NCBI RefSeq assembly: GCF_000301055.1
Contig: NZ_JH932301.1
Location: forward strand, 220,742-269,734
Length of the DNA stretch: 48,993 bases
Direction of reading: 5' to 3'
Source: Falseniella ignava CCUG 37419
GTDB taxonomy: Bacteria > Bacillota > Bacilli > Lactobacillales > Aerococcaceae
Position 1 is the first letter of the stretch, and the number at the start of each line of letters is the position of its first letter. The notes beneath the pieces are model-generated. The model worked only from the letters and a program-made list of their open reading frames with translations, ran no database searches and was not told the DNA's origin. Positions 13,413 through 29,857 of this stretch are shown piece by piece. The position numbers were made by a program, and so were the translations under genes.

Positions 13413-13498
13413 AAGGAAACCTCCAACGATTGATAGTTTTATTATATCAAATATCAAAAAATCATGCCGTATGATTATTCAATTGATAAGATTTTTGT

Positions 13499-15238: not shown

Positions 15239-15285
15239 GTGTTGGACGGCGTCAATTGTAGTTGATTGAAAAGAAGGAGAAACAT

Positions 15286-16527
15286 ATGAAAAAAATTATG
15301 AAATGCTTGGCCGCTTTAATGTTGTTATTTACGACCATAGTTCCTTTTGGAACAACGGCTCATGCCGAGGAAATAGTTGAAATTAATTTTATGATTCCAG
15401 ATTGGGGTGCCCCTTCTGAAGAGCTGTTGAAAGAATTTGAAGAACAATCAGGCATTAAAGTCAATGTTTTACCGACAGCTTGGGATGATATTCGGGATAA
15501 ATTAGCGATTGCTGCTGCAGGGAATACAGTCGCGGCAGATGTTTTTGAAGTTGACTGGTCGTGGGTCGGAGAATTTGTTAATGCGGGTTGGTTAGCACCA
15601 ATTGAATTAGAAGATGCGGACGATTTCCCAGCATTATCACAATTTGCAGTAGATAAAACGGTATATGGTGTTCCTTATGCGAACGACTTCCGTATCGGTT
15701 ATTACAATAAACGCATGTTCAATGAAGGAGAAGTAGATGAAGATGTTACTTCTTGGGATAAAGTTATCGAAACAGCGAAAACATTAAAAGAAGCTGGTGT
15801 GGTTGAATATCCAGTTTCAATTCCGATTGAAGCGGGTGAAAATACTACGACCACTTTCTTATGGTTAGCACTTTCTCGTAACGGTGTCGTCTTTAATGAG
15901 GATGGAACGTTGAATGCTGAAGCAGCCCTTGATGCACTGACAGTTTATGAGGAATTAATGACGAATGAATTAGTCGACCTTGGTAACGTTAACAGTTCAG
16001 GATATGATTCATTTATGCCAATCGTCAATGGTGACGCAGCCTTTGTAGTTGGTCCTTCCGGACTGCTTCAAATGGTTGAAGGCGAAGATTCTGCTGTAAA
16101 AGGTGAAATTGAGACGGCCCTATTGCCAGGTAAAGAAACAACCTCTCCTGTAACAGCTTCATTCCAAGAAGGTGTAGGAATTTCACCAAATACAGAACAT
16201 CCTGACGCAGCCCTTGAATTCGTAAAATGGTATACTTCACCAGAAACTCAAGCGCGTTTATTTGATGAGTTAGGTTCACTACCAACACGTATTAGTGTGC
16301 TCGAAAAAGTCGTTGAAGAAGGTAAAATTAATATCGCGGGTGTGATGACAGAGTTAGCGGGTATGATTGAATCGCCTTTCCCACACGGTGTTCCTGCATA
16401 CTACACCGAAATGAGTGCAGAAATTTATAACGTCATTAATCAACTAGCAACTGGCAAATTAACTGCTGAAGAAGCAGCAGAGCAAATGGTTGAAAATGTT
16501 AATAAAGTGGTTGAAGCAAATAAATAA
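15286..16527 (+). CDS. Sugar-type ABC substrate-binding protein (family 1), importer 1
   Basis: A 413-residue MalE/UgpB-like binding protein. The signal peptide ends TTAHAEE, a signal peptidase I site; no lipobox cysteine lies at the cleavage site (the only nearby Cys is residue 7). The mature part has family-1 features: EQSGIKVNVLPTAWDD, DVFEVDWSWVGEF, PYANDFRIGYYNKRMF. GAAGGAG fixes the ATG at 15286. It heads a three-gene unit with two permeases but no ATPase. Substrate unknown; family members bind carbohydrates or glycerol-phosphodiesters. Confidence 0.85.
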   Translation: MKKIMKCLAALMLLFTTIVPFGTTAHAEEIVEINFMIPDWGAPSEELLKEFEEQSGIKVNVLPTAWDDIRDKLAIAAAGNTVAADVFEVDWSWVGEFVNAGWLAPIELEDADDFPALSQFAVDKTVYGVPYANDFRIGYYNKRMFNEGEVDEDVTSWDKVIETAKTLKEAGVVEYPVSIPIEAGENTTTTFLWLALSRNGVVFNEDGTLNAEAALDALTVYEELMTNELVDLGNVNSSGYDSFMPIVNGDAAFVVGPSGLLQMVEGEDSAVKGEIETALLPGKETTSPVTASFQEGVGISPNTEHPDAALEFVKWYTSPETQARLFDELGSLPTRISVLEKVVEEGKINIAGVMTELAGMIESPFPHGVPAYYTEMSAEIYNVINQLATGKLTAEEAAEQMVENVNKVVEANK

Positions 16528-16538
16528 GGAAAAGCACA

Positions 16539-16567
16539 ACAGACCAGTTATTTGCTGGTCTGTTTTT
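16539..16567 (+). terminator. Hairpin between binding-protein and permease genes, importer 1
   Basis: ACAGACCAG (16539-16547) pairs with CTGGTCTGT (16555-16563), followed by T residues. Partial termination here would lower permease levels relative to the binding protein. Confidence 0.75.
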
Positions 16568-16605
16568 GTATCAAAATATGATAGAAAGAAAAGGGGTGAG
16601 AATTG

Positions 16606-17472
16606 ATGGATAAGATTAAACGGGGCGCTTTATTTCTACCAGGGATATTGCTGATGGGAATATTAGTCCTTTATCCGATCATTAAAACTTTTTACTTGAG
16701 CTTATTAAATTATAAATTAACGCGACCGAATCAAACAAAATTTATCGGTCTGGAAAACTATATAAAAGTTATACAATCGCAAGATTTTATGAATGCGTTA
16801 ATCAATACACTATATATTTTGGTGATCGTTACAGTCGTAGTGTTAATTATCAGTATTGCGATAGGCATGTTGTTAAATATCAATTCATCAATGAGTTCTT
16901 TTCTAACAGCATGCGCCATTATTCCCTGGGCGCTACCCCCTCTAGTCAATGGGATTATTTGGCGATTTATGTTCCATCCAACTTATGGGCTAATTAACAA
17001 ATTATTGTTAAATTTTGGTTTAATTGAAACGCCTGTTTTCTGGCTAACGGATCGGTGGCAGTTGTTGATGATTGTGTCATTTGTTATTGCTTGGCGTGTG
17101 ATTCCGTTTTGTGCCATTATTGTATTAGAACGATTGCAGGCTATTCCATTCGATCTATATGAAGCAGCACAAGTTGATGGAGCCAATCGTTGGTATCAGA
17201 TGACGGATATTACCCTCCCTTTTATTGCTCCTGCGATTAAAGTTGTTTTGTTACAAGCTTTATTAGCAGGTGTTATGGCATTTGACGAGATTATAGCGCT
17301 CGCCGGCTATCGCTTTGAGACACAATCACTTCTCGTATATAATTACATGAATACATTTAGCTATCTAGACTTTGGTTATGGATCTGCGATTACTTATATC
17401 TCAATGCTCTTATCCGGGGTGTTTGGGTATTTCTACATTCGATCAATCAATATAGAAAATGCGGTGGATTAA
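16606..17472 (+). CDS. Sugar-type ABC permease, importer 1 (MalF/UgpA-like)
   Basis: A 288-residue six-helix permease of the MalF/UgpA group. The EAA loop reads YEAAQVDGANRWYQMTDITL. AAGGGGTGAG is 5 bases before the ATG at 16606, which I prefer to the TTG one codon earlier. The next permease gene begins 2 bases after its stop. Confidence 0.88.
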   Translation: MDKIKRGALFLPGILLMGILVLYPIIKTFYLSLLNYKLTRPNQTKFIGLENYIKVIQSQDFMNALINTLYILVIVTVVVLIISIAIGMLLNINSSMSSFLTACAIIPWALPPLVNGIIWRFMFHPTYGLINKLLLNFGLIETPVFWLTDRWQLLMIVSFVIAWRVIPFCAIIVLERLQAIPFDLYEAAQVDGANRWYQMTDITLPFIAPAIKVVLLQALLAGVMAFDEIIALAGYRFETQSLLVYNYMNTFSYLDFGYGSAITYISMLLSGVFGYFYIRSINIENAVD

Positions 17473-17473
17473 T

Positions 17474-18313
17474 ATGAAGAAAAGAAGTAAGGGACTTTAC
17501 TCAATTGCGGTGGTTTTATTTTTAATCTTTACCTTGGCGCCGATTGTTTGGAATTTTATTATGAGTTTAACGCCGAACAACGAACTGGTAAAATTCTCTA
17601 CGCAACTATTACCTACAACAATCTCGTTTGCGAATTATCAGAAGATATTAGATTCATCGACCAAGGCGCATCAAGTTGTTTTTAACGGATTGAAAAACTC
17701 AATCAAACTCGCATTGTACACGACGTTGATGTGTGTTCCATTAGCAACCTTAACAGCATATGGCTTTCGTCGATATCATTTCAAATGGAAGATCGGACTT
17801 TTTCGTTCATTATTGATCACAATGGTAATACCAGTCTTTGCTACCATTATTCCTATTTTTGAAATGTTTGCACAATTTAAATTAATTAACAATTTATTTT
17901 GGGTAAGTGTGATTTGCGTCACCGCCTTTTATCCGCTCTCGACTTGGATGATGTATAACCATTTTCATAGTATTTCACAAGATTTATGGGACGCTGCGGC
18001 GATGGATGGCGCGAATGAATGGTATACGGCGTGGGAGATTATTTTACCTGCCTCAAGAAATGCCATATTAGGTTGCGTATTGACGGTTATTTTGATGACG
18101 TGGAGTCAATTTCAAATTCCGATGATTCTATTGACGTCTCAATCTAATAAAGTCGTAACATTAATTTTATCGGAATTTATGACTCGTGACTCGGTAGATT
18201 ATGGTATGATTGCTGCATCAGGATTATTTACAATTTTGCCGCCACTTATTATTGCAATTATTTTCCGTCGAAGCTTAGTAAGTGGACTGTCATCAGGAAG
18301 TGTGAAAGGATAA
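17474..18313 (+). CDS. Sugar-type ABC permease, importer 1 (MalG/UgpE-like)
   Basis: A 279-residue MalG/UgpE-type permease with six predicted helices and the EAA loop DAAAMDGANEWYTAWEIILP. The start could also be an ATG five codons upstream that overlaps the previous gene; I prefer 17474, right after its stop codon. No ATPase gene follows; the MsmX-like ATPase at 26020 could energise both importers. Confidence 0.86.
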   Translation: MKKRSKGLYSIAVVLFLIFTLAPIVWNFIMSLTPNNELVKFSTQLLPTTISFANYQKILDSSTKAHQVVFNGLKNSIKLALYTTLMCVPLATLTAYGFRRYHFKWKIGLFRSLLITMVIPVFATIIPIFEMFAQFKLINNLFWVSVICVTAFYPLSTWMMYNHFHSISQDLWDAAAMDGANEWYTAWEIILPASRNAILGCVLTVILMTWSQFQIPMILLTSQSNKVVTLILSEFMTRDSVDYGMIAASGLFTILPPLIIAIIFRRSLVSGLSSGSVKG

Positions 18314-18318
18314 TGTGA

Positions 18319-18333
18319 CTCGAATTATTCGAG
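18319..18333. repeat. Palindrome after importer 1
   Basis: CTCGAATTATTCGAG: 7-base arms around one base, with no T tract. It could be a weak mRNA end or an operator upstream of the next promoter. Confidence 0.3.
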
Positions 18334-18379
18334 AAAATATCATAATCTTTATGTGAATTTATTCATTAGTGTGAATGGA

Positions 18380-18408
18380 TTGTTTAACTTAGAATTTAAT
18401 GATAAAAT
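18380..18408 (+). promoter_or_regulatory. Promoter of the corrinoid operon
   Basis: TTGTTT (18380-18385), 17 bases, TAAAAT (18403-18408) with TG at the extended -10 position. The predicted start near 18415 gives a 350-base untranslated leader. Confidence 0.55.
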
Positions 18409-18459
18409 AATCTTGAACTATGTTGCATAGATTGTTTTAGAGGAAGGAAGGGATTGCCA

Positions 18460-18471
18460 ATGCGAAAGTGA
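18460..18471 (+). CDS. Putative three-codon leader ORF (M-R-K-stop)
   Basis: ATG CGA AAG TGA with AAGGG 7 bases upstream inside the inner leader stem. Arrangement and sequence (ATG, two codons, TGATTT) resemble the M-V-R frame at 15181. Translation is unproven. Confidence 0.3.
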   Translation: MRK

Positions 18472-18683
18472 TTTAGCGTAATGGAACAAGTTTTGTTTAT
18501 TGAAGAATCCCTTGTCAACATCTAAAACTGAATATTTCAACATGCCTTCAGATTAACGGGATTGTCGTTTTTTTAAGTGAGATTAGAAAGCGTTGATGGA
18601 CCGTCAATTGTGCCAAGGGCTTGTTTGTCTATGCAATATTTGCGTTATTTTTAAACTTTAATAGATGATTTAACGAGATATTG

Positions 18684-18715
18684 CCGTTCAATCCAAAGGG
18701 GTTGATCGGTTTTTT
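18684..18715 (+). terminator. Intrinsic terminator in the corrinoid operon leader
   Basis: CCGTTCAATCC (18684-18694), loop AAAG, GGGTTGATCGG (18699-18709), then six T. It ends 50 bases before the corrinoid protein ATG, so expression needs readthrough or antitermination. Confidence 0.8.
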
Positions 18716-18764
18716 GTGTTGTTGTGAAATATAAGTGGGTTCGTAGCAAACTTGAGGAGAAGAC

Positions 18765-19436
18765 ATGGAAGAACAGGATAAATTATTAAAAAGAATTTCA
18801 GATCTCGTATTAGATATGGATGAAGAGGGCATCGTTGATGCAGTCAGGGAGTATCTCGATGCAGACTTTGATCCAGAAGTAGCTGTATTAGATGGTTTGG
18901 TTGATGGCATGAATCGCGCAGGGGAGCTGTTTGCTGAAGAAGAGTACTATGTGACCGATTTGCTGTTTTGTGCAGATACGTTCGAATTAGGAATGGAAAT
19001 CTTACAACCGATTTTAATGGAGCGAGTGGATACTCGAGCGGACTTACCGAAAGTGGTCATTGGAACTGTGGAAGGTGATACGCACGATATCGGGAAAAAC
19101 TTATGTCATATTATGCTTGAAGCAGGAGGCTTTGAGGTAATTGACTTAGGTAAAGACGTTCCACTCCAAAACTTTATTGATGAAGCTGTCGCACAAGACG
19201 CACATCTGATTGGACTGTCAGCGTTAATGACAACGACCATGGGTGGGATGCGTCGGGTGATTGAGCTTCTAGAAGAACAAGGTTTGCGTCAGCAAATTAA
19301 AGTAATGATCGGAGGCAGTCCAGTCTCACAAGCTTTTTGTGATGAGATTGGCGCTGATGGTTATTCCGAAAATGCTTTTGAATGTGTGGAGTTAGCGAAG
19401 CGATTAACTCATCACACTGAATTGGAATCAAAATGA
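18765..19436 (+). CDS. Methyltransferase cognate corrinoid protein
   Basis: A 223-residue MtaC/MtbC-type corrinoid protein. The N-terminal helical cap (about 1-90) precedes a cobalamin-binding Rossmann domain with DTHDIG (His107 is the lower axial ligand), GLSALMTTTM and MIGGSPVS. It carries the methyl group between a substrate methyltransferase and an acceptor methyltransferase. GAGGAG precedes the ATG. Its stop overlaps the next start by four bases (ATGA). It shows that the island depends on a corrinoid cofactor, which must be salvaged unless made elsewhere in the genome. Confidence 0.92.
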   Translation: MEEQDKLLKRISDLVLDMDEEGIVDAVREYLDADFDPEVAVLDGLVDGMNRAGELFAEEEYYVTDLLFCADTFELGMEILQPILMERVDTRADLPKVVIGTVEGDTHDIGKNLCHIMLEAGGFEVIDLGKDVPLQNFIDEAVAQDAHLIGLSALMTTTMGGMRRVIELLEEQGLRQQIKVMIGGSPVSQAFCDEIGADGYSENAFECVELAKRLTHHTELESK

Positions 19437-21130
19437 TTGTCAAAATAAATTTACCGGATGGGCGTCAATTGGATTACGATACAGAAAGTCGCGAATCGCT
19501 TTGGCAATGTCTGCGTCGACATGACGTATTAATTAGTGGAGACTGTGATGGGCGTGGGCGTTGTGGCCAATGTCGCGGAACAGTTTCAACTCAAGGACAG
19601 TCGCCTAAAGAGCGGCTCTTATGTCGTTATTATCCAACGCAATCGGTAGCAGTGACTAATTTTAAACTTGAGACACAACATACGATACTGACTGAAGGGA
19701 CTTTGCCTCACTTTGAGTACCGACCCGCTATTACAAAGCGCATACTGACAGCGGGAGAGGCCCAACAAGCGTCAAAACAACTCGGTTTATCTATGGATGA
19801 ACAAACCCACCAATGGACGGGAGTCTACGACCAAGGTGAGATATTCTCTATCGAACCGGGGGATACAACGGCGTGGCAATACGGTCTGGCAGTCGATATT
19901 GGGACCACAACGGTCGTCGTAACATTAGTGAACTTACTGACAGGCGAGCAGTTGGCGACAAAAAGCCAACTCAACCAACAAGGGCAATATGGCTCCGATG
20001 TTTTAACGCGAATAACGCATGTGATGGATTCAGGCTTATCAGGGTTAGATAACTTGCAAACCGCTGTTATCAATACAATTAAAGGATTGATTCAGGCGTT
20101 GCGAATTCAAACAGGGGTGAATTCGCAATATATCTATCAGATGGTTATCGCGGGAAATCCAGTGATGTTGCACTTGTTACTTGGAATTAATCCAGAGCCG
20201 TTAGGCCGTTCGCCTTATGAGTTAGTCGTTAAATCGAGTCAAAATTTTCAAGTTCATCCTGAATGGGATTGGTCTATTAATTCACGGGCACGTATTATTA
20301 CGTTGCCGATGATCTCAGCTTATGTTGGCGCAGATGTTGTTTGCGGCGCCTATGTAGCGGAACTCGATCGACAAGATCAAGCCATTGTGATCGATATTGG
20401 GACGAACGGCGAGATGATTTTAGCCTCCAACCAACATCTTCTCAGCTGTTCGACCGCAGCGGGACCAGCGTTTGAAGGGATGAACATTACATCAGGAATG
20501 AAAGCCTCGAGTGGTGCGATTGAGGAAGTGCGTTTGACGCCTGAAGGGGCAGTCTTATCAGTGATTTCAAATACAGAGCCGATTGGACTCTGTGGTAGTG
20601 GTGTATTAGCAGCATTGCGTGAGGGACTCCGATATCAATTGGTTAATGAACGTGGACGAATTATCGATCCACAAAGTCTAGCGCCGGATGATGATCGTCT
20701 TCAGTACATTGAAGTCGACGCAACAGGGAAACGTCGAATTCGTTTAGCTGAGGGAGTCTATTTATCGCAACAAGATATTCGCCAAGTCCAATTAGCGAAA
20801 GGTGCGATTATGGCCGGGATTGAACAATTGCTAGTTGAAGCTCAAACTACGGCAGAAGCTATCCAGCACGTCTATATTGCCGGACAGTTTGGAGCACATA
20901 TTGATGAGTCGAGCCTGATTGAAACAGGCATCTTACCTCAAGCTTTTAAAAATAAGTTGCACTACTTGGGGAACACATCTCATAGTGGAGCCTATATGGC
21001 ACTGATGTCACTTGACGTCCGACAGGACTTAGAAGCATTAAGTCAGCGAATTGAACCGCTCGAATTAAGTCTAATGGACGACTACCAGCGACGTTTTGTA
21101 CGCCACACACTATTTGAGAAGCGGGGTTAA
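19433..21130 (+). CDS. 2Fe-2S/ASKHA corrinoid activation protein (RACo-like)
   Basis: A 565-residue protein of the COG3894 group. An N-terminal ferredoxin-like domain has the 2Fe-2S ligands Cys38, Cys44, Cys47 and Cys64. A central linker precedes a C-terminal ASKHA ATPase domain with VDIGTTTVVVTLV, GNPVMLHLLLG and VIDIGTNGEM. Such proteins use ATP to reduce inactive Co(II) corrinoid protein back to Co(I). Translational coupling to the corrinoid protein gene (ATGA overlap) supports a partner role. The electron donor is not encoded nearby. Confidence 0.9.
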   Translation: MIVKINLPDGRQLDYDTESRESLWQCLRRHDVLISGDCDGRGRCGQCRGTVSTQGQSPKERLLCRYYPTQSVAVTNFKLETQHTILTEGTLPHFEYRPAITKRILTAGEAQQASKQLGLSMDEQTHQWTGVYDQGEIFSIEPGDTTAWQYGLAVDIGTTTVVVTLVNLLTGEQLATKSQLNQQGQYGSDVLTRITHVMDSGLSGLDNLQTAVINTIKGLIQALRIQTGVNSQYIYQMVIAGNPVMLHLLLGINPEPLGRSPYELVVKSSQNFQVHPEWDWSINSRARIITLPMISAYVGADVVCGAYVAELDRQDQAIVIDIGTNGEMILASNQHLLSCSTAAGPAFEGMNITSGMKASSGAIEEVRLTPEGAVLSVISNTEPIGLCGSGVLAALREGLRYQLVNERGRIIDPQSLAPDDDRLQYIEVDATGKRRIRLAEGVYLSQQDIRQVQLAKGAIMAGIEQLLVEAQTTAEAIQHVYIAGQFGAHIDESSLIETGILPQAFKNKLHYLGNTSHSGAYMALMSLDVRQDLEALSQRIEPLELSLMDDYQRRFVRHTLFEKRG

Positions 21131-21133
21131 GCG

Positions 21134-21967
21134 ATGTCGCATTGGAAGCGAATTGAACAGCTTGAAAGATTACATTATCCTTTTGACAGTGGCGAAGGGT
21201 TGACTTCAAACCAGCATCAATGGTTAGCAGAAACGCACGGTTCTTTAGAGGTGATGCAAACATTAATCCGTTTGCGTCAAAAGGCGACTCAAAAACCATA
21301 TGTATTAGCACCGATCGGTCATCTGATGGCGTCACAAGCACTCGGAGCGCATGTAAAATATGTAGCCACCGGCGGAGCTTATGTCACACGATGGGAAGCT
21401 CAAGCTGACTTGGATCTTACCCAAATCGTCCCGTTAATCGAATGGTTGAATCAATTGGATGAACCTGTAGGCTTCAATGACACCGGGCTTTGGACCATTT
21501 GGGAGAGCCTCATTGGCTTACGGGAATTACTTACGGTGCTTAAACGAGATGCGACGGTGCCACTCCAAGCTTTCAAACAATTGTATCAACAGTGGACGAA
21601 GCTCTTACAAGCCGAATTGAAACTCAAGCGAGGGATGATTATTCTAGGTGATCCAATTGGAATTCCCGAAATAATCGGGGATGCGTTTTATCGAGAATAC
21701 GTCATGCCTTGGCAATGGGAGTGGCTATGTGAATGGTTAACTTATGTTCGTTGCACATCAGGCGTGGTTTATGTTAATCCATTAATGGCGGATGGACTGA
21801 TCCGGTATCGAAAGACTGATTATCGGGTCATACACCACCGCTGTTCGAATGATCGATTTACCGATCAAGTTTTATTAAATCCAATGTATCAAGGGGCTGT
21901 AGTCACTCGACTGCTTGATGGCAGCGCCGTTGAATTATTAGTAACTGAAAAGGAGTACTGCAATTGA
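21134..21967 (+). CDS. Degenerate UroD-fold methyltransferase-like protein
   Basis: A 277-residue protein I read as a diverged relative of the two UroD-type methyltransferases of this operon. Its GDPIGIPEIIGDAFYREY aligns with TDPVSSGALISGKQYREF of the next gene, and LGAHVKYVATGGAY aligns with LGSQMKYPEDASPM. The N-terminus is shorter. The HxC zinc pair and the C-terminal GPGC cysteine are not found, so zinc-dependent methyl transfer as in MtaA is unlikely. It could be a substrate-binding or scaffold subunit. It starts 3 bases after the RACo-like gene and overlaps the next by four bases. Confidence 0.6.
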   Translation: MSHWKRIEQLERLHYPFDSGEGLTSNQHQWLAETHGSLEVMQTLIRLRQKATQKPYVLAPIGHLMASQALGAHVKYVATGGAYVTRWEAQADLDLTQIVPLIEWLNQLDEPVGFNDTGLWTIWESLIGLRELLTVLKRDATVPLQAFKQLYQQWTKLLQAELKLKRGMIILGDPIGIPEIIGDAFYREYVMPWQWEWLCEWLTYVRCTSGVVYVNPLMADGLIRYRKTDYRVIHHRCSNDRFTDQVLLNPMYQGAVVTRLLDGSAVELLVTEKEYCN

Positions 21968-23001
21968 ATTCAATCGAGAGGTTAGCTGCTTTTAATCAAG
22001 GGTTGCCAGTAGATCGCCCACCCTATATGTTGTTTCATGGAACATTTGGTGCGAGATTGACCCACCAAACGTATCAAGAATCTGAAGCAACTGCGGGTAA
22101 TATTGCAGCCAAGGAAATCGCTGTATACAACGCATTCGGATGCGATAATGTTTCGGTGAATTTGGGGTTAAATGGACTGGGAATCATCTTAGGGAGTCAA
22201 ATGAAGTATCCGGAAGATGCCAGTCCGATGTTAGATGTTCCATTGCTGTCATCTTTAGATGAGTTAGACAAAATTGATTTATCCAAAGTTTCTTTCGAAG
22301 CTTCTTGCTTATTACGTAAACATGATTTAGCGATTCAAATGATTCAAGACCGACTCGGTCAAGAGGTTGCAGTAGCTTATGAGCTTACAGGTCCCTTAAC
22401 TTCCGCAGCGAGCTTAATTAATATTGAGACTTTGCTGCGTGGAACTCGAAGACAACCCGAACAAGTGCATCAACTCTTAGAGTTAGTAACACAAGCAACG
22501 TTACGTATTATTGATGCCTTTGCATTAAATCATCAAACAACATTCAATATAACGGATCCAGTGTCATCAGGAGCTTTGATTAGCGGCAAACAATACCGTG
22601 AATTTAGCCAACCTTATACTCAACGCATTGTAGAGCATATTAAACAATATCAACGAGGGGAGGTGGTGATTCACATTTGCGGCGATACAACAAAGTTTCT
22701 GACCGATATTGCCAGTACTGGAGTCGATTATATCTCAATCGACCAACAAGTTGATTTGAAAACAGCGTTGGAGATTGTAGAAGAATTACCGGTAGGTATT
22801 ATCGGCAATATCGATCCAGTGAAATATCTCCTTCAAGGTGATATTAACTCAATCCAGCAACAAGTTGCCCAAAGTTATGAGGCAGCAAAGCATAGTTCAA
22901 CGAAGTATATTATTGGACCGGGATGCAGTGTGCCACTAGCCACACCGATTCAAAATGTGACGGCGTATGTGGAAGCGATAATGCATTACGGTCGAATGTA
23001 G
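21964..23001 (+). CDS. UroD-family corrinoid methyltransferase (copy 1, MtaA/CmuA-like)
   Basis: A 345-residue protein of the uroporphyrinogen-decarboxylase superfamily, methyltransferase branch. Zinc ligands typical of MtaA-type enzymes are present: His237 and Cys239 in HICGDT and Cys321 in GPGC. Such enzymes move methyl groups between a corrinoid protein and a thiol, folate or other acceptor, or demethylate substrates directly. TTG start with AAGGAG 8 bases upstream, overlapping the previous stop (TTGA). Haem synthesis is unlikely as the role because the neighbours are corrinoid-linked. The direction of transfer is not decided by sequence. Confidence 0.85.
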   Translation: MNSIERLAAFNQGLPVDRPPYMLFHGTFGARLTHQTYQESEATAGNIAAKEIAVYNAFGCDNVSVNLGLNGLGIILGSQMKYPEDASPMLDVPLLSSLDELDKIDLSKVSFEASCLLRKHDLAIQMIQDRLGQEVAVAYELTGPLTSAASLINIETLLRGTRRQPEQVHQLLELVTQATLRIIDAFALNHQTTFNITDPVSSGALISGKQYREFSQPYTQRIVEHIKQYQRGEVVIHICGDTTKFLTDIASTGVDYISIDQQVDLKTALEIVEELPVGIIGNIDPVKYLLQGDINSIQQQVAQSYEAAKHSSTKYIIGPGCSVPLATPIQNVTAYVEAIMHYGRM

Positions 23002-23018
23002 AAATAAGGAGACAGATT

Positions 23019-24236
23019 ATGAAAAAAATAATGTTAAAACTTGTAGCGGCAGTCATGCTACTAAGCGTTTTCGTTCCGAGCTTATTCACTGCAGTTCACG
23101 CAGAAGAGAAAGCGGAGCAAACCGTGAGTATTTTAGTTCCTGGTTATGATACAGGTTACTTACGTGAAGAACTTGATGCCGGTATTAAAGCTTTTGAAGA
23201 AGCTGAAGGGATTAAAGTTGAAGTCATTCCTGTAGGATGGGATGAATTAAACAGCCGTATTGTTCAATTAGTAAATGGCGGACAAGCGCCAGATATTATG
23301 CTAATTGGGACACGTTCACTTCGTCAATTCCGTGATGAAGGAATTATTCGCGACTTAGATGAATTCATTACACCTGAATTTATTGAACCGCGTGTTGAAA
23401 GTGTCTATCACACAGCAACGATTGACGGTAAACAATATGGTATTCCAATGGCGTTCTCAAGTCGTGCATTAATCTACCGTACAGACTTAATTGAAACACC
23501 GCCAACCAATTGGGACGAATTATTAGAAGTGGCAGAAAAAGTCAAAGAAGAACATGATATTTATGGATTCTACTTACCAATCGACGGACCAGGAACTTCG
23601 ATTGAATTAATGAACTTCTTCTACCAAAATGATGGCTTCCCAGTAAGTGAATCAGGTGAATTCCAACTTAATACACCTGAAATTGTTGAAACTGCAGAAT
23701 ACTTAAAACAATTCGTCGATAAAGATTTAGTTCCAAGTCCACTTGAATCTGAACGTAACGATCAAATTAAAATGTTCGTTAATGGAGACTTAGCAATGTT
23801 CGTAACAGGTCCATGGGATCAAGAAGCTTTAGAAGAACATAAAGAAGAATACCCATACGCAGTGGCACCCCTACCAGAAGGTAAACATCCAGGCGTTAAC
23901 ATTGCAACGGACTCTTACGTTATTACACAAGGAGCTAAAAATCCAGAAGGTGCATGGAAATTCATTGAATTTATGGGTCAAGAAGAATTCCAACGTCCAG
24001 TGAGTGAAGCATTCAACTGGTTCCCAATTCTTAAAGCTGAAGAAGCTGACGAAAGATTCCAAACAGACTTTATGAAACCGTTCTTAGAGACCATTGCTTT
24101 CGGTTACCCAGACCCACATACACCAAACTGGGATGAGTTTAACCGTGCATTCGTTCAAGCTTTACAAGAAACCTTGTTAGGTGAAAAAGACGGTCAAACT
24201 GCCTTTGATGAAGCTCAAAAAGAAGTCGCTGAATAA
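23019..24236 (+). CDS. Sugar-type ABC substrate-binding protein (family 1), importer 2
   Basis: A 405-residue family-1 binding protein. The signal peptide ends TAVHAEE with no lipobox cysteine. The mature part shows EEAEGIKVEVIPVGWDEL, PDIMLIGTRSLRQF and GPWDQEALEEH. The frame is open upstream into the methyltransferase gene, but AAGGAG 6 bases before the ATG at 23019 and the signal peptide set the start. It is 17 bases from the methyltransferase stop, so it is co-transcribed with the corrinoid genes. It is only distantly similar to the importer 1 protein, so the ligands may differ. Confidence 0.88.
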   Translation: MKKIMLKLVAAVMLLSVFVPSLFTAVHAEEKAEQTVSILVPGYDTGYLREELDAGIKAFEEAEGIKVEVIPVGWDELNSRIVQLVNGGQAPDIMLIGTRSLRQFRDEGIIRDLDEFITPEFIEPRVESVYHTATIDGKQYGIPMAFSSRALIYRTDLIETPPTNWDELLEVAEKVKEEHDIYGFYLPIDGPGTSIELMNFFYQNDGFPVSESGEFQLNTPEIVETAEYLKQFVDKDLVPSPLESERNDQIKMFVNGDLAMFVTGPWDQEALEEHKEEYPYAVAPLPEGKHPGVNIATDSYVITQGAKNPEGAWKFIEFMGQEEFQRPVSEAFNWFPILKAEEADERFQTDFMKPFLETIAFGYPDPHTPNWDEFNRAFVQALQETLLGEKDGQTAFDEAQKEVAE

Positions 24237-24246
24237 TTTTTAAACG

Positions 24247-24286
24247 AAAAATTTTTGCTGGGCCAATTGAGCCCAGCAAAATTTTA
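24247..24286. terminator. Hairpin between binding-protein and permease genes, importer 2
   Basis: GCTGGGC (24257-24263) pairs with GCCCAGC (24271-24277); flanking A/T runs extend the stem to about 15 bp. It occupies the same place as the hairpin in importer 1, so partial termination or mRNA stabilisation is likely. Confidence 0.65.
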
Positions 24287-24318
24287 AATCAATGGGAGTC
24301 TGAAGGAGGGATTATCAG

Positions 24319-25188
24319 ATGCGAAAACATACCGATTGGGTACCTTATACTTTGATTATGCCAGCAATTATTCTTTTGATTATTTTATATGGTTATCCTT
24401 TTTTCTTGACATTGATTCAGTCATTTCAAGAAGTGCGATTGTTTGGTGGCGAGTCGACTTGGGTAGCGTGGGGGAATTTTAAAAAGATTTTTACCGATAG
24501 TTCTTATGTAAAAAGCTTGTCGATCACCTTGCGTTATGCGATTTTTACGGTATTTCTTAAAATTGTAATTGGCTTTATATTCGCCATGTTGTTAAATAGC
24601 GATATTTACTGTAAGAAGTTCGTGCGTTTTCTGTTCCTTTTACCATGGGCAATGCCACAAATTGCGGTAGGGATTGTATGGAAATGGATTCTCGACGGTA
24701 AATATGGTTATTTAAATTACTTTTTACAGCAGATCAATGTGATTAGCTCAAATATTTCTTGGTTAGCTCGTCCAGATATTACACTCTATGTCGTCGGGAT
24801 TGTTGATGCTTGGATGGGATGGCCTTTAGTGACGATGATGTTCTTATCGGGACTAGAAAATATTCCAACGAGTCTTTATGAAGCAGCGCGTGTCGACGGT
24901 GCAGGTTATTGGTCCCGCTTTGTCAATATTACCTTAGCTCAGATGAAGAGCATTATTATGGTGACCTTAACATTGGTAACCATCTGGACTTTCAACTCCT
25001 TTAACGTTCTCTATGTTATGACGGAAGGCGGACCACTTCGCTCAACGGAAACATTAATGATGCGCGTCTATAACGAAAGCTTCCGTAATTTTAACTTCGG
25101 AATTAGTAGTGCGCTTTCGGTTTTAATTTTAATTTTCTTAGTCCTTATTACGTTCAACTATATTCGTAATATCTTGAAGGAACAGTAG
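24319..25188 (+). CDS. Sugar-type ABC permease, importer 2 (MalF/UgpA-like)
   Basis: A 289-residue six-helix permease. The EAA loop YEAARVDGAGYWSRFVNITL and the GGPLRSTETLMMRVYNESF segment are typical of carbohydrate uptake family 1. AAGGAGGG precedes the ATG. The partner permease gene follows after 8 bases. Confidence 0.9.
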   Translation: MRKHTDWVPYTLIMPAIILLIILYGYPFFLTLIQSFQEVRLFGGESTWVAWGNFKKIFTDSSYVKSLSITLRYAIFTVFLKIVIGFIFAMLLNSDIYCKKFVRFLFLLPWAMPQIAVGIVWKWILDGKYGYLNYFLQQINVISSNISWLARPDITLYVVGIVDAWMGWPLVTMMFLSGLENIPTSLYEAARVDGAGYWSRFVNITLAQMKSIIMVTLTLVTIWTFNSFNVLYVMTEGGPLRSTETLMMRVYNESFRNFNFGISSALSVLILIFLVLITFNYIRNILKEQ

Positions 25189-25196
25189 GTGATGAC

Positions 25197-26015
25197 ATGC
25201 AAAGAAAATTACGAACAGCAATTGTTATTTTAATTGGGCTTTTAATCAACTTGCCGATTATCATTATGGTTATTTCTTCGTTAAGTTCCTACTCTAACCT
25301 CTTGCAAAATCCGGTTCACAGTTTTGAGTGGCCACCGATGTGGGAAAATTATACGGAGACGCTCTTTGGTGAAAAAAGCATTATTAAACCGTTAATCAAC
25401 AGTTTGGTTGTCTCAGGGGTTACGATGGTGCTATGTACCAGCGTTGCGGTCTTAGCGAGCTATGCGACAACGCGTTATCCGATTCGATTTAAAAAAGGTT
25501 TTCTTTATACGGTCCTACTATTTCAGATGTTTTCACCCGTCTTACTCTCTGGACCACTTTATGCCATCTTTAATACGTTAGGTATTTTAGATACTCGCTT
25601 ATCACTGATTATTGGTAACACGGCGAGTTGCTTGCCGATGACGATTTGGTTATTGTATACCTATTTACAAGGGATTCCGCTCTATATCGAAGAAGCTGCG
25701 CGAATGGATGGCTGCACTTGGTATGAGAGTGTCTTCCATGTGTTGCTTCCAATGGCGTTACCGGGAATTATAACGGCTAGCTTATTTGCCTTTATTTCTG
25801 CTTGGGGAGATATTATCTTCGCCCGCTCAAGTATTTTGAATATGGCGAATAACACGTTGCCGCTAGCTATTATTCGTTTCGAAGAATATAATCGGACACG
25901 TTGGGATCTACAACTGGCTGCCAGTACGATTTCAACCATCCCAGTCTTTGTATTCTTTATGTTTATTCAAAATTCAATTGGCCGTGGGTTAATGCAAACA
26001 AGTAGTAAGGAGTAG
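25197..26015 (+). CDS. Sugar-type ABC permease, importer 2 (MalG/UgpE-like)
   Basis: A 272-residue permease with six predicted helices and the EAA loop EEAARMDGCTWYESVFHVLL. AGGTGA precedes the ATG. It pairs with the upstream permease; the ATPase gene starts 4 bases after its stop. Confidence 0.9.
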   Translation: MQRKLRTAIVILIGLLINLPIIIMVISSLSSYSNLLQNPVHSFEWPPMWENYTETLFGEKSIIKPLINSLVVSGVTMVLCTSVAVLASYATTRYPIRFKKGFLYTVLLFQMFSPVLLSGPLYAIFNTLGILDTRLSLIIGNTASCLPMTIWLLYTYLQGIPLYIEEAARMDGCTWYESVFHVLLPMALPGIITASLFAFISAWGDIIFARSSILNMANNTLPLAIIRFEEYNRTRWDLQLAASTISTIPVFVFFMFIQNSIGRGLMQTSSKE

Positions 26016-26019
26016 AACT

Positions 26020-27063
26020 ATGTCAAAAGTAACGATTGATAACGTCACAAAATCTTATAGTCGTGACACTACTATTTTTACCGATTTATCGCTGGTCTTC
26101 CCAGACAATGAATTTATCGTTATTCTAGGGCCGTCTGGTTGTGGTAAGACGACCTTGCTTCGGATGATAGCCGGATTAGAGGATTTCGATAAAGGACGTA
26201 TCTTAATTGACGAGACCGATGTCTCAAATATGAAGCCTGAGCAACGTGATATTGCGATGGTGTTCCAAAACTATGCGCTCTATCCGCAAAAGACGGTCTA
26301 TCAAAATATGGAGTTCGGTCTTAAAATGCGTAAAGTTCCAGCTGAAGAGCGTGCCGAACGTATTAAAAATGCGAGTGAAATTCTAGGCTTAGATCAGTTA
26401 TTAGATCGCTATCCAAAACAATTATCTGGTGGACAACGCCAACGGGTAGCATTAGGGCGAGCTCTAGTGCGCGATCCTAAATTATTCTTGCTCGACGAGC
26501 CTTTATCGAACTTAGATGCGAAGCTTCGAATTAAGATGCGCTCAGAAATTATCCAACTTTATCAACGAATTGGTAAAACAATGATCTATGTGACGCATGA
26601 CCAGACTGAAGCGATGACGATGGGAACACGCATTTTATTAATGAATGAAGGTTTAATTCAGCAATATGATGTTCCGGAAAAATTATACGATGAACCCGCG
26701 AATATTTTTGTGGCACAATTTATCGGAAGTCCACAAATGAATATTGTCAGTGAACCGGTTCAAAATGGGAAAGTGAAATTTGGAAATATTACGTTAAATG
26801 TGCCGGAGGGGTACCAAGGTGATCGAATTCATATTGGATTGCGGGCAGAAGATTTACAAATTGCTGACGGTGAATTCTATGAAGTATCACATACAGAAAA
26901 CTTAGGAAACGAACAATTAATCTATCTTTATGATGACCAAGGTGAGGAAATTGTGGTGCGAGATTACGAACGTACACAGCTAGAACCAGGTCAGCGTGTC
27001 GGATTAACCTTGTTAGATCATAAGATTCATTGGTTCGACCATCAGACAGGGGAGCGAGTTTAA
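26020..27063 (+). CDS. Sugar ABC transporter ATP-binding protein, MsmX/UgpC-like
   Basis: A 347-residue ATPase. Walker A GPSGCGKT (37-44), Q-loop VFQNYALYP, signature LSGGQRQR, Walker B LLDEPLSNLDAKLR and H-loop VTHD are followed by a C-terminal TOBE/OB regulatory domain (about 240-347), as in MalK, UgpC and MsmX. AAGGAG lies 7 bases before the ATG. As the only CUT1-type ATPase in the window it may drive both importers, as MsmX does in Bacillus; that sharing is inference. Confidence 0.92.
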   Translation: MSKVTIDNVTKSYSRDTTIFTDLSLVFPDNEFIVILGPSGCGKTTLLRMIAGLEDFDKGRILIDETDVSNMKPEQRDIAMVFQNYALYPQKTVYQNMEFGLKMRKVPAEERAERIKNASEILGLDQLLDRYPKQLSGGQRQRVALGRALVRDPKLFLLDEPLSNLDAKLRIKMRSEIIQLYQRIGKTMIYVTHDQTEAMTMGTRILLMNEGLIQQYDVPEKLYDEPANIFVAQFIGSPQMNIVSEPVQNGKVKFGNITLNVPEGYQGDRIHIGLRAEDLQIADGEFYEVSHTENLGNEQLIYLYDDQGEEIVVRDYERTQLEPGQRVGLTLLDHKIHWFDHQTGERV

Positions 27064-27069
27064 TTATTG

Positions 27070-27972
27070 ATGAATGCGAGAAGAATATTAGATTGTTATG
27101 CGAGTGATTTTGAGCAAATGAATCGGAAGATGCTGTTGCAATCCATAGCTGCTGCGGAAGGTCGTACGGTACTCGTTGAATTAAAAGAAAGTTTTGAATC
27201 ATATATAAAAGACTTGACCAATTCTGAATTGGCAGTGGCAGCCGGCGCGGATTTGATTTTATTGAATCAGTTGAATGTACTAGAACCGGTTATACTAGGG
27301 ATCGACCAAGCTGACCGTCCGGTTCAACGCTTAAAAGAATTAGTCGGTGTTCCGTTAGGGGTTAACTTGGAGCCGATTGTGCCGACATCTGCTCAAACCT
27401 ACGAACCATTGGAAACGATGATATCCGGTCGGAAGCTAAGTGTTGAAACACTAGACGTTATTGAGAATTTGTCGTTGGATTTCTTATGTATTACAGGGAA
27501 TCCAAAATCAGGCGTTACGAACGAAGGAATTGTACAGAGTATTCAACTTGCCAAAGAACATTATTCAGGAATCATTATGGTAGGGAAAATGCATTCTGCA
27601 GCCATTCAAGAGCCGGTCATGACAGAAGCCGTTGCGGAGCAATTTGTAGAAGCAGGAGCTGATGTGGTCTTATTACCAGCCGTTGGGACGATTCCGGGTT
27701 TTACGATGGAGGAATTCCTAGCGTGTCAACGTATTATCCGTCAATCAGGTAAGTTGGTCATGGCTGTTAATGGAGCGAGCCAGTGTTGTGCACCGAGAGA
27801 TGTAATCCGTCAGATTGCTTTGAATAGCAAAGTAGGCGGCGCTGATATCCATCACATTGGATCATCGAACAGTGGTGGTGTGGCACCTTTTGAGAATATT
27901 TATGAATTGTCGATGACCATTCGTGGAGAAAATCACACATTAAGACAATTAGCGAGATCGATTCGACGTTAG
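27070..27972 (+). CDS. DUF7916-like TIM-barrel protein, function unknown
   Basis: A 300-residue protein of a family often labelled haloacid dehalogenase-like hydrolase, a label the sequence does not support (no DxDxT motif). The start RILDCYASDFEQMNRKMLLQ, AAGADLILLNQLNV, TGNPKSGVTN and GADVVLLPAVGTIPG fit a beta/alpha barrel such as those of phosphosugar or pterin-binding enzymes. I recall it as DUF7916; the name should be checked. It has a weak ribosome site and probably relies on coupling to the ATPase gene 6 bases upstream. Its place among methyltransferase and importer genes suggests it handles the imported compound or a one-carbon carrier. Confidence 0.5.
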   Translation: MNARRILDCYASDFEQMNRKMLLQSIAAAEGRTVLVELKESFESYIKDLTNSELAVAAGADLILLNQLNVLEPVILGIDQADRPVQRLKELVGVPLGVNLEPIVPTSAQTYEPLETMISGRKLSVETLDVIENLSLDFLCITGNPKSGVTNEGIVQSIQLAKEHYSGIIMVGKMHSAAIQEPVMTEAVAEQFVEAGADVVLLPAVGTIPGFTMEEFLACQRIIRQSGKLVMAVNGASQCCAPRDVIRQIALNSKVGGADIHHIGSSNSGGVAPFENIYELSMTIRGENHTLRQLARSIRR

Positions 27973-27981
27973 GAGAAAAAT

Positions 27982-28680
27982 ATGGACGCAAAATTAGAAA
28001 AAGGTTTAACGATTTATTTTATTCGTCATGGGGAGACTTACTTCAATTTACATCAACGAACGCAAGGTTGGGTAGATCCGTTTTTGACCCCTAAAGGGAT
28101 TGAAGATATGCGCCAAGTTGGCAAGCGTCTTAGCCGAGTGCGTTTTGATGCAGCCATTGTCAGTGACTTGAAGCGTACCACGAGAACGGCGGAGATTTTA
28201 CTAGGTGAAAGTATTTATCCACGTTGGATGGTGCCAATTCGCGAATTAGCGGATTTCCGTGAGATTAGTTTTGGGAGTTTTGAAGGAATGACTGCCAATG
28301 AAACATGGGAAATACTCCGGCAATATCTCGGTTTCCCTTCGGTTGAAGCGATGTTAAATGAAACAACCGAGGCCGAGCGGCTCTCTGCACTGAAACCGGC
28401 AGATTTGCATGGTGAGGGTGAAGATTATCAAGATTATTTGGCTCACTTACATGTTGGGGCAGATAAACTGCTTGATGAGTTAGGAGATACGGATGCGACC
28501 TTACTCTTTGTGGGGCACAGTATTAATATCCGTCATATTTTACAATATTTGATTCCGAAAGAAGACCATATTCCAGAGCTTTATGATATGTATTCGATGA
28601 AAAATGGCGGGGTTATTACGATTAATAATCAATCCGGATATTTTAAAATTCACCAATACATGGATAAATTTTATGAGTAA
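27982..28680 (+). CDS. Histidine phosphatase family protein
   Basis: A 232-residue phosphoglycerate-mutase-like phosphatase. The phosphohistidine motif RHGET is near residue 16, the second arginine lies in SDLKRTTRTAE, and the C-terminal FVGHSINIRH supplies the second catalytic histidine. The length and insertions fit a small-molecule phosphatase rather than a glycolytic mutase. GGAG precedes the ATG. It may dephosphorylate an intermediate of the imported substrate; inferred only from the operon. Confidence 0.85.
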   Translation: MDAKLEKGLTIYFIRHGETYFNLHQRTQGWVDPFLTPKGIEDMRQVGKRLSRVRFDAAIVSDLKRTTRTAEILLGESIYPRWMVPIRELADFREISFGSFEGMTANETWEILRQYLGFPSVEAMLNETTEAERLSALKPADLHGEGEDYQDYLAHLHVGADKLLDELGDTDATLLFVGHSINIRHILQYLIPKEDHIPELYDMYSMKNGGVITINNQSGYFKIHQYMDKFYE

Positions 28681-28694
28681 AGGAGACGATGCCA

Positions 28695-29723
28695 ATGGAA
28701 CTCACTTCCGCTGAACGTTGGGAAAGACTTCATACGCAATCCCCATTAGATACGATGCCGGTCGTACTCTTTGATAATTTAGTGAGCGCTAAATTAATCG
28801 ACCGAACTTACCTTGAATCTGAAGCAGACGCGACATTATTGCTTGAGAAGTTATTAAAAAGTTATCAAACCTTTAAAGCAGATTCCGTCTCTTTAAATTA
28901 TTCGATGAGCGAAATCAATCAGGTGCTTGGCGGTGAAAGTAAAGTTACTCATCCAAATACTTCACGTAGTATTGTGGCTTATCCTGCCCAAGCATTAGAC
29001 GACGTTGCGGCATTGCCAGAGTTGGCATTGGAGACACTTCCGGTTACTTTAAGGTTGCGTCAAGCCATCGAACATTTTCTTAATGAGACACATGGAGAAG
29101 TCCCAGTTCGTCTTCATTTTAGAGGTCCTTTCAGTATGGTAGCAGGTTTGATTGAATCGGAGAAAATTTTACGCGGTATGCGCCGAGATCCAGAAGGACT
29201 CCATGCAGCGTTAGCTTATACGACACAATTAGCCACACAGCTCGTTGAATGTTTCAGTGATTTGGCACCGATTATCTACAATATAAGCGATCCGGTGGCG
29301 AGTGGTAGTTTAATTAGCCACAAGCAATACGAGGCGTTTGCCTTTCCATATACGCAACAACTTGTCGAAACATTGCATCAACAAAATCAACGCGTACACC
29401 TACACATTTGTGGTAATACGGAACGAGCATTACCGTTGATTCAACAAACGGGTGTGGATGCATTTAGTATGGATCAAGTGGTTGATGTGGCAAAGGCTTT
29501 TGAAATGACTGATCATCAGTTGTTGCTGATGGGCAATGTCGATCCCGTTAAGTTTTTCTTAGAGGGAACACCTGAAGAAATCAAGCAGGAAGTTGAACGC
29601 ATTGCTCAAGCCGCAAAAGATGCAAAAGGAACATTAATTCTAGCTCCAGGATGTGATTTGCCTTATGATACACCGATTGAACAAATTCAGGCCTTTATGG
29701 AAGCAGCACGCGCTTGTTCGTAA
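28695..29723 (+). CDS. UroD-family corrinoid methyltransferase (copy 2)
   Basis: A 342-residue second methyltransferase of the UroD superfamily, clearly paralogous to the one at 21964. The zinc ligands are conserved: His237 and Cys239 in HICGNT and Cys320 in APGC; SDPVASGSLIS matches the same block. I prefer the ATG at 28695 (9 bases after AAAGGAG) over the ATG two codons earlier, only 3 bases from that site. The two copies could split the work: substrate-to-corrinoid and corrinoid-to-acceptor. It is the last gene of the island, just before the SRP RNA. Confidence 0.84.
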   Translation: MELTSAERWERLHTQSPLDTMPVVLFDNLVSAKLIDRTYLESEADATLLLEKLLKSYQTFKADSVSLNYSMSEINQVLGGESKVTHPNTSRSIVAYPAQALDDVAALPELALETLPVTLRLRQAIEHFLNETHGEVPVRLHFRGPFSMVAGLIESEKILRGMRRDPEGLHAALAYTTQLATQLVECFSDLAPIIYNISDPVASGSLISHKQYEAFAFPYTQQLVETLHQQNQRVHLHICGNTERALPLIQQTGVDAFSMDQVVDVAKAFEMTDHQLLLMGNVDPVKFFLEGTPEEIKQEVERIAQAAKDAKGTLILAPGCDLPYDTPIEQIQAFMEAARACS

Positions 29724-29734
29724 AAGGGTGTGAC

Positions 29735-29763
29735 TTGCTTTCAAGAGAAACCTATGATACTAT
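29735..29763 (+). promoter_or_regulatory. Promoter of the SRP RNA gene
   Basis: TTGCTT (29735-29740), 17 bases, TACTAT (29758-29763) with TG at the extended -10 position. An overlapping TGACTT-16-TATGAT alternative exists. Confidence 0.55.
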
Positions 29764-29766
29764 AAA

Positions 29767-29846
29767 GATGCCAATGGTGGAGTCACGAACCGGGTCAGGA
29801 TCGGGAGATAGCAGCTCTAAGTGACGAAGCCATGTGGTATTTTTTT
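29767..29846 (+). ncRNA. ffs: Small signal recognition particle RNA (4.5S-like)
   Basis: About 80 nucleotides with the SRP domain IV core: ACCGGGTCAGGA on the 5' side and AGCAGCTCTAAGTGA on the 3' side. Outer helices form from ATGCCA/TGGTAT and GTCAC/GTGAC. The apical helix is AUC-GGGA-GAU, where most bacteria have UCC-GGAA-GGA: a covarying change that keeps a GNRA tetraloop. A T run follows. Position before dnaX agrees with other Lactobacillales. This short Alu-less form is the type found in the order. Confidence 0.88.
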
Positions 29847-29857
29847 ATATTCAAGTG

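Follow-up and report, generated by a model that had tools for sequence, protein, structure and literature searches.

Introduction

The closest described relatives of the locus studied here, a corrinoid methyl-transfer operon at positions 18765-29723 of a 48,993-nucleotide stretch of the Falseniella ignava CCUG 37419 genome (hereafter the window; contig NZ_JH932301.1, positions 220,742 to 269,734), are the mlp gene clusters (MGCs) proposed by Kountz and Balskus, in a preprint, for the demethylation of methyl selenides and sulfides (PMC10418091). In that work a His-Cys-Cys zinc site is tied to sulfur and selenium substrates, whereas O-methyltransferases carry carboxylate or non-coordinating residues there, and ClMlp2 moves a methyl group from methylcobalamin onto selenide. 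It reports hosts that are obligate anaerobes only, while the present host is from a family of Lactobacillales, and the words sugar, Lactobacillales, Facklamia, Aerococcus and facultative are absent from its main text. The SdmABC methyl-selenide system of Methanococcus voltae and M. maripaludis likewise links a corrinoid protein and UroD-type methyltransferases to selenium supply, and a similar operon of M. maripaludis is reported to rise 5.6-7.8 log2 upon selenium depletion; dimethylselenide is described there as assumed to enter without active transport, although the authors do not exclude it (PMC11097638), whereas importers are attached to the present operon. The aromatic O-demethylases of acetogens (OdmB/VdmB) also combine a UroD superfamily methyltransferase with a corrinoid protein and an ATP-dependent activase, but their zinc ligands differ (PMC10418091), and bacterial systems of this type mostly pass the methyl group to tetrahydrofolate (H4folate) through a dedicated methyltransferase, of which none was found here.

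A prior interpretation of the DNA (the sequence-only reading) had described a corrinoid methyl-transfer operon with its own sugar-type importer, and family scans agree, placing all of the named parts on the plus strand. The solute-binding protein, permeases and ATPase of that importer are present as described, but a second importer (15262-18313) and a GNAT_C gene (12507-13457) had been overlooked. Like a type 1 MGC, the locus combines a corrinoid protein, a Ram/RACo activase and Mlp1- and Mlp2-type UroD proteins with selenocysteine machinery and grd genes in the genome, and no H4folate methyltransferase was found nearby; it differs in having no Mlp3, two Mlp2-type paralogues and, within the operon, CUT1 importer genes, a DUF7916 gene and a phosphatase gene. 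A published account of the same operon had been named as grounds for abandoning the interpretation: the core is indeed described in PMC10418091, but the importer and the sugar link were not found there. The core is a variant of a system that has been proposed in the literature before. As far as our literature searches show, what is new is the link to importers and GH123, its recurrence in two lineages, and the selenosugar hypothesis; among the matches listed in a search of the open-access literature (titles and abstract beginnings), there was no importer- or GH123-linked corrinoid system.

Results

Eleven plus-strand genes form a genuine operon at 18765-29723, with gaps of -4 to 82 bp between neighbors when the start of the solute-binding protein gene (SBP) is set at 23007 (Table 1). 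Pfam and NCBIfam scans of the predicted window proteins identify, at its head, a corrinoid protein (CorP) whose motif D105-x-H107-x-x-G110 shows no variation across five aligned sequences, and an activase (RACo) with an N-terminal ferredoxin-like Cys cluster, judged by eye, and a weak NqrF match at residues 3-57 that is under cut-off. The UroD proteins were placed in a tree of 265 homologues from the window, six Lactobacillales loci and 80 named mlp loci (stretches of at most 10 kb each side), with three proteins of locus L131, assigned from the Clostridium ljungdahlii gene order of PMC10418091, as the Mlp1/2/3 reference. The two full-length proteins, UroD1 and UroD2, group with the C. ljungdahlii Mlp2-position protein in a clade of 107 tips (support 0.962), where they belong to a Lactobacillales subclade (12 tips, 0.996); their identities to the Mlp2-position protein are 36% and 30%, and to the Mlp3-position protein 24% and 26%, respectively. 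No Mlp3 was found, and neither protein lies in the Mlp3 group, which is itself weakly supported (0.217) and of uncertain outline. The third protein, P3, has no Pfam or NCBIfam match and lies in the Mlp1 clade (71 tips, support 0.998). A profile of four Lactobacillales P3-type proteins aligned by hhalign to 21 Clostridial short Mlp1 proteins at E 1.9e-28 and to ten full UroD proteins at E 7.7e-15, and the predicted model of P3 resembles MtaA/UroD folds. Judged from its sequence, P3 is a degenerate UroD homologue of the short Mlp1 type, and the "degenerate third" methyltransferase of the sequence-only reading was thus correctly recognized; a direct search of the genome collection with P3 gave 17 pattern matches, none of them confirmed. 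CorP, RACo, the Mlp1-type P3 and a full UroD make up the published MGC set minus Mlp3. Since both full UroD proteins are of Mlp2 type and Mlp3 is missing, the strict "type 1" definition fails.

The zinc site points to the substrate class. His-Cys-Cys is found in 107/107 members of the Mlp2 clade, UroD1 and UroD2 included, and neither protein has exchanged a zinc-site Cys for a carboxylate or non-coordinating residue, unlike OdmB/VdmB-type O-demethylases. In P3 the His is replaced by Tyr and the first Cys by Asn; the corresponding columns of the Mlp1 clade read Leu-Cys-Cys in 44/71 members and His-Cys-Cys in 10/71. MGCs were delimited in print by three further features. Their genes run in one direction without a divergent gene between them, as they do here. 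They are spaced by at most 2 kb, which holds for CorP, RACo, P3 and UroD1, with UroD2 following 5.7 kb past UroD1. No H4folate methylase homologue occurs within 20 kb, and none was found here by a PF00809 search, MtrH (PF02007) not having been searched for. The single PF00809 match in the F. ignava genome (G000; 1.77 Mb, six contigs, two of them named C1 and C2 here) is dihydropteroate synthase, over cut-off, on C1. It had also been noted that an MtaB- or MttB-type enzyme usually starts such pathways and that none was visible. MTTB is indeed absent from all ten genomes searched, F. ignava included, and no Pfam match to MtaB occurs in the ten operon proteins scanned, the genome not having been searched for it; the expectation itself finds no support, given that the UroD superfamily includes O-, S- and halogen-demethylases according to PMC10418091. 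That two UroD-type enzymes play both roles, as had been suggested, is likely.

RACo_C_ter occurs in 7/395 genomes of the order: those of F. ignava and five further members of its family, plus one from a different family. Two of these (G188 and G076) have the core order CorP-RACo-UroD-degenerate UroD-UroD with no importer in the stretch examined, and in G325 the order is UroD-SBP-PermA-PermB-ATPase-DUF7916-degenerate UroD-CorP-RACo-UroD. In G209, Facklamia hominis CCUG 36813 (Facklamia being a genus of Aerococcaceae, Lactobacillales), the order is importer-DUF7916-RACo-UroD, and a corrinoid protein, an unassigned 231-aa protein and three UroD genes lie elsewhere. In G182, an O-acetylhomoserine sulfhydrylase gene (TIGR01326, over cut-off) comes after CorP-degenerate UroD-UroD-RACo. 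In G249, which carries the same genus label as G076, the core is split into several frames (L041 9128-11570) and MTHFR is a remnant. At E <= 1e-40, SBP has matches in 5/76 family genomes, with the query begun at 23007 or 22923, and SBP0, the binding protein of the upstream importer, in 9/76, one at 35% identity and one truncated. DUF7916 was rejected as a marker of the system, being present in 160/395 order genomes.

Relatives connect this core to sugars. The upstream CUT1 importer, SBP0-perm0A-perm0B, ends 451 bp before the corrinoid gene and has no ATPase gene with it, so the operon ATPase may serve both importers. In G076 (Aerococcus sp. HMSC062A02) a run UroD-ROK-HAD-GH123-SBP0-perm0A-perm0B-GNAT_C-ATPase, with gaps of -16 to 33 bp except for 467 bp before perm0A, contains a 568-aa protein that matches GH123 at 1.1e-81 and also matches solved beta-N-acetylgalactosaminidases. 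In the tree, UroD2 has no closer relative than the UroD of this run (44% identity; support 0.855 for the pair, 0.957 with G325). GNAT_C homologues accompany SBP0-type importers in G138, G209, G122 and G076 and occur in four Lachnospiraceae mlp loci. DUF7916 homologues stand among sugar genes in both plasmid contexts inspected; its structure model (predicted local distance difference test score 69.5, built from two sequences) gave generic TIM-barrel matches only.

Among the 80 named loci, CUT1 binding protein and permease genes occur in 11, GH123 in 5 and GNAT_C in 4, and Pfam confirms 5/5 of the GH123 and 4/4 of the GNAT_C proteins. In L097, a metagenome-assembled genome labelled Dorea, mlp1-corrinoid-mlp3-ram-mlp2-mlp2'-GNAT_C-SBP-perm-perm-GH123 forms an unbroken run with gaps of -11 to 87 bp. 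The mlp2' paralogues form one clade of ten (0.996), and CUT1 or GH123 accompanies 10/10 of their loci vs 3/70 of the others (Fisher 1.7e-10), a value that is descriptive only, since the clade was chosen after the contexts had been seen, search profiles were seeded from some of the same loci, and the loci are related. Hosts of this clade are Lachnospiraceae for four by label or taxonomy (L086, L090, L093 and Merdimonas), and we take the remaining hosts to be Lachnospiraceae as well. That the importer-linked UroD clade of Aerococcaceae is separate from that of Lachnospiraceae suggests that the link arose at least twice. The importer had been taken to hint at a methylated sugar, polyol or glycerol-phosphodiester: the sugar direction stands, with a UroD2 relative beside GH123, a ROK kinase and a CUT1 importer and with similar sets in Lachnospiraceae, but O-methylated sugars, polyols and glycerol-phosphodiesters are no longer the first choice, given the His-Cys-Cys site.

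The selD gene is over cut-off in 11/13 genomes tested, F. ignava included (the exceptions are G188 and G249), and selA and selB are over their cut-offs in F. ignava. Full-length GrdB occurs in 26/395 genomes of the order vs 5/7 of those with RACo (hypergeometric 1.6e-5, kinship ignored), and in 5/5 genomes with SBP and 7/9 with SBP0 vs 10/72 family genomes searched (hypergeometric 1.8e-5 and 2.7e-6, respectively, again ignoring kinship). F. ignava itself has two full-length GrdB loci in two grd sets, one on C2 (L062/L063) and one on C1 (L064 13119-18228). The C2 set includes GrdX (over cut-off), selD, selB, selA and both component C subunits (GrdC/GrdD, over cut-off). The C1 set adjoins a dihydropyrimidinase gene (over cut-off) and a gene that we take to encode an amidase-like protein, neighbors that suggest a route from creatinine to sarcosine. 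Its model scores, all under cut-off, do not settle its substrate (betaine 413, glycine 402 and sarcosine 400 bits). Together with what is known of relatives, in part presumed by us, the creatinine-type genes would be consistent with a urinary niche of the host.

Discussion

We propose that the operon is a variant MGC that demethylates methyl-selenium or methyl-sulfur compounds and is fed by dedicated sugar-type importers. That methyl-selenium or methyl-sulfur demethylation is the class of reaction is likely; the whole proposal, importers included, stands about evenly balanced between right and wrong; and the more specific idea that the substrate is a selenosugar, and that the operon and its relatives are a selenosugar-utilisation system, is tentative, with its chances short of even. 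From the gene content, family membership, zinc ligands, selD/selA/selB/grd genes and context in relatives, all directly seen, we infer the following substrate, reactions, methyl acceptor and division of roles between UroD1 and UroD2. First, a CUT1 importer would bring in an amino sugar with methylated selenium (or sulfur), and sugar-handling enzymes would act on it, which may be DUF7916 and the phosphatase here and GH123 in relatives. The Co(I) corrinoid protein would then receive the methyl group of the zinc-bound selenolate or thiolate through UroD2 or UroD1, the other UroD would hand this group to a thiol acceptor, and RACo would re-reduce oxidised corrinoid at the expense of ATP. The selenide released could pass through SelD into the selenocysteine of glycine-reductase-type enzymes. 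MetH was considered as the methyl acceptor and rejected, the genome's single B12-binding match being the operon's own CorP, as were MTHFR and MetE as partners, G000 having no MTHFR and no full-length MetE.

The main form of selenium in human urine is reported to be 1beta-methylseleno-N-acetyl-D-galactosamine (PMC4425141, PMC5372522). As this is a beta-N-acetylgalactosamine glycoside of methylselenol, a bacterium using it would require an importer for the sugar, a beta-N-acetylgalactosaminidase, and an enzyme that demethylates methylselenol; the selenosugar idea predates the identification of GH123 in the relatives. Rats are reported to assimilate selenosugar selenium as well as selenite, which needs a demethylation step of unclear mechanism in which the intestinal flora is possibly involved (PMC5372522). 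Our analysis offers candidates for this step among bacterial enzymes, importers and host genera, and gives the importer-linked mlp clusters a concrete substrate hypothesis. It also locates mlp clusters in a family of Lactobacillales in which the members studied here have glycine-reductase-type enzymes. If the selenosugar reading is true, the methylated selenium sugar of human urine may be a selenium source for some bacteria; if the substrate is instead a methylthio sugar, the clusters would still be a new branch of methyl-sulfur salvage.

Several observations weigh against this proposal. GH123 is absent from the window, the rest of the genome not having been searched for it, and no cobalamin riboswitch was found in G000. 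The guanine-plus-cytosine (GC) content is 38-40% in the importers vs 44% in the core, so the two halves may differ in origin. In G076 both importers lie on a contig separate from the core. In G122, GH123 adjoins SBP0 but there is no RACo, and the sugar module can therefore exist apart from the corrinoid system; G138, also without RACo, has homologues of DUF7916 (52%) and of the phosphatase (62% identical) close to its SBP0, and the SBP importer of G122 lies near FolD-like and glycine-cleavage-like genes, named by eye. The mlp2' clade was picked post hoc, as stated above, and binding proteins of the Lachnospiraceae clusters share only ~20-25% identity with those of the window, so the importer association arose separately or has diverged far. 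Finally, the core is intact in G188 although selD is not over cut-off there, which means that selenium is not obligatory.

This last genome also supports the strongest alternative, selenium-independent salvage of methyl-sulfur, in which methylthio compounds (e.g. products of methylthioribose or methylthioadenosine) would donate their methyl group to homocysteine or another thiol. We consider it unlikely, yet the most serious of the rivals. Such salvage was proposed for ~10% of MGCs (PMC10418091), and the sulfhydrylase gene of G182 follows the core. MTHFR was not found in the F. ignava genome, which has two PF01717 (core-MetE-like) matches in frames of 388 and 402 aa, neither of them a full-length MetE, so another methyl source for methionine is plausible. 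However, core-MetE-like genes without MTHFR are also found in G195, G244 and G305, all without a RACo match; no methionine-salvage genes were recognised by eye in the window; and F. ignava is a selenium user, full-length GrdB accompanying most RACo genomes of the order as given above. As a separate observation, one core-MetE-like gene of F. ignava (C2:715157-716296; L183 3158-4297, minus strand) has an in-frame TGA where the G305 and G195 homologues have Cys, and adjoins YedE (over cut-off) and YedF (108.2 vs a cut-off of 110). The same TGA occurs in G182 and G325, each time by a YedF-like frame, and one TGA occurs in the G244 match. From its sequence the gene likely encodes a selenocysteine-containing MetE-like protein; among the entries inspected in the selenoprotein table of a review (PMC9312934), there is no selenocysteine MetE family.

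It could also be that the importer half serves ordinary amino-sugar uptake and is co-transcribed by chance with an unrelated methyl-chalcogen salvage core. G122, where SBP0 accompanies GNAT_C and GH123, and G138, where it accompanies GNAT_C, DUF7916 and the histidine phosphatase, fit such an arrangement, as does the GC difference between importers and core. On the other hand, two distant lineages each have their own clade of importer-linked Mlp2 paralogues, the L097 run is unbroken from mlp1 to GH123, and the GH123 operon of G076 is headed by a UroD. We think chance linkage rather improbable.

A third possibility is that methyl groups from sarcosine, methylamine or compounds derived from creatinine feed the corrinoid protein and supply glycine-reductase-type enzymes with carbon or electrons. 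The C1 grd set beside its dihydropyrimidinase and amidase-like genes would suit this, and the operon lies close to glycine-reductase-type genes in F. hominis (G209) and G325. A second corrinoid protein and UroD of G325 (L068 9729-14594), possibly a separate methyl-transfer unit, stand near a grd B-component set of unsettled substrate. Against it, the lack of MTTB in all ten genomes and of any PF00809 methyltransferase beyond dihydropteroate synthase leaves no visible route for N-methyl use or methyl oxidation, and the His-Cys-Cys site favours sulfur or selenium; we regard this explanation as very unlikely. Least probable is the removal of an O-methyl group from a sugar, polyol or glycerol phosphodiester, as first put forward, for although the importer has a UgpA-like permease (under cut-off) and DUF7916 lies among sugar genes in two plasmids, the His-Cys-Cys residues of UroD1 and UroD2 differ from those of superfamily O-methyltransferases (PMC10418091) and dihydropteroate synthase is the genome's only PF00809 protein; import of glycerophosphodiesters, considered for the same permease, was abandoned for lack of a recognised diesterase among the operon genes.

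Other features of the locus

Table 1. Genes and regions of the operon and its upstream flank, in window coordinates.
Feature	Position	Strand	Basis
GNAT_C (N-acyltransferase-like) protein, divergent	12507-13457	-	PF18164 E 1.5e-31
SBP0, CUT1-type solute-binding protein	15262-16527, TTG start; ~15286 likelier	+	SBP_bac_1 E 7.6e-36
perm0A, importer permease	16603-17472	+	BPD_transp_1 E 2e-11; 53% identity to G209 homologue
perm0B, importer permease	17459-18313	+	BPD_transp_1 E 2.8e-13; 48% identity to G209 homologue
Intergenic region, 451 bp, possible regulatory region	18314-18764	.	position before corrinoid gene
CorP, corrinoid protein (methyl carrier)	18765-19436	+	PF02310 B12-binding E 3e-27, PF02607 B12-binding_2
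RACo/Ram-type ATP-dependent corrinoid activase	19433-21130	+	PF14574 RACo_C_ter E 9e-69, PF17651 Raco_middle
P3, short degenerate UroD homologue (by sequence), Mlp1 type, 277 aa	21134-21967	+	tree, profile comparison, fold
UroD1, Mlp2-type zinc methyltransferase, H237/C239/C321	21964-23001	+	PF01208 URO-D E 2e-62
SBP, CUT1 solute-binding protein	23019-24236, likely start; longest open reading frame 22923-24236	+	PF01547, PF13416
Importer permease A	24319-25188	+	PF00528 BPD_transp_1; best NCBIfam UgpA (PRK10561), under cut-off
Importer permease B	25197-26015	+	PF00528 BPD_transp_1
Importer ATPase with MalK-type OB domain	26020-27063	+	PF00005 ABC_tran E 9.5e-36, OB_MalK, TOBE_2
DUF7916 protein	27067-27972	+	PF25509 E 4e-108; TIM-barrel model
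Histidine phosphatase	27982-28680	+	PF00300 His_Phos_1
UroD2, Mlp2-type zinc methyltransferase, importer-linked subclade, H239/C241/C322	28689-29723	+	PF01208 E 9e-53

Rfam gave no match up to E 1 in 18250-18850 (601 bases), which spans the region before the corrinoid gene, and promoter and terminator scans were near shuffled expectation (43 vs 40.0, standard deviation 7.7, and 17 vs 12.0, standard deviation 3.5, respectively). The PDB sequence relatives of SBP, which are CUT1 binding proteins of a general kind and fusions, give no indication of the ligand. By eye, SBP (from 23019) and SBP0 (from 15286) each have an apparent signal peptide ending in A-x-A and no lipobox cysteine, which is odd for a Gram-positive importer. 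In L214 (G138) and L215 (G244) the SBP0 importer stands beside allantoinase, allantoin permease and allantoate deiminase genes, which were scanned in G138 only. Peptacetobacter hominis (L138, 2134-14794) has an mlp cluster in which a CUT1 importer with ATPase is embedded; FchA-, FolD- and MetF-like genes, named from best hits below their cut-offs, come after it, which would fit entry of the methyl group into folate metabolism in that organism. The window also contains a small signal recognition particle RNA immediately past UroD2 (29761-29850) and a lysine riboswitch at 3577-3729.

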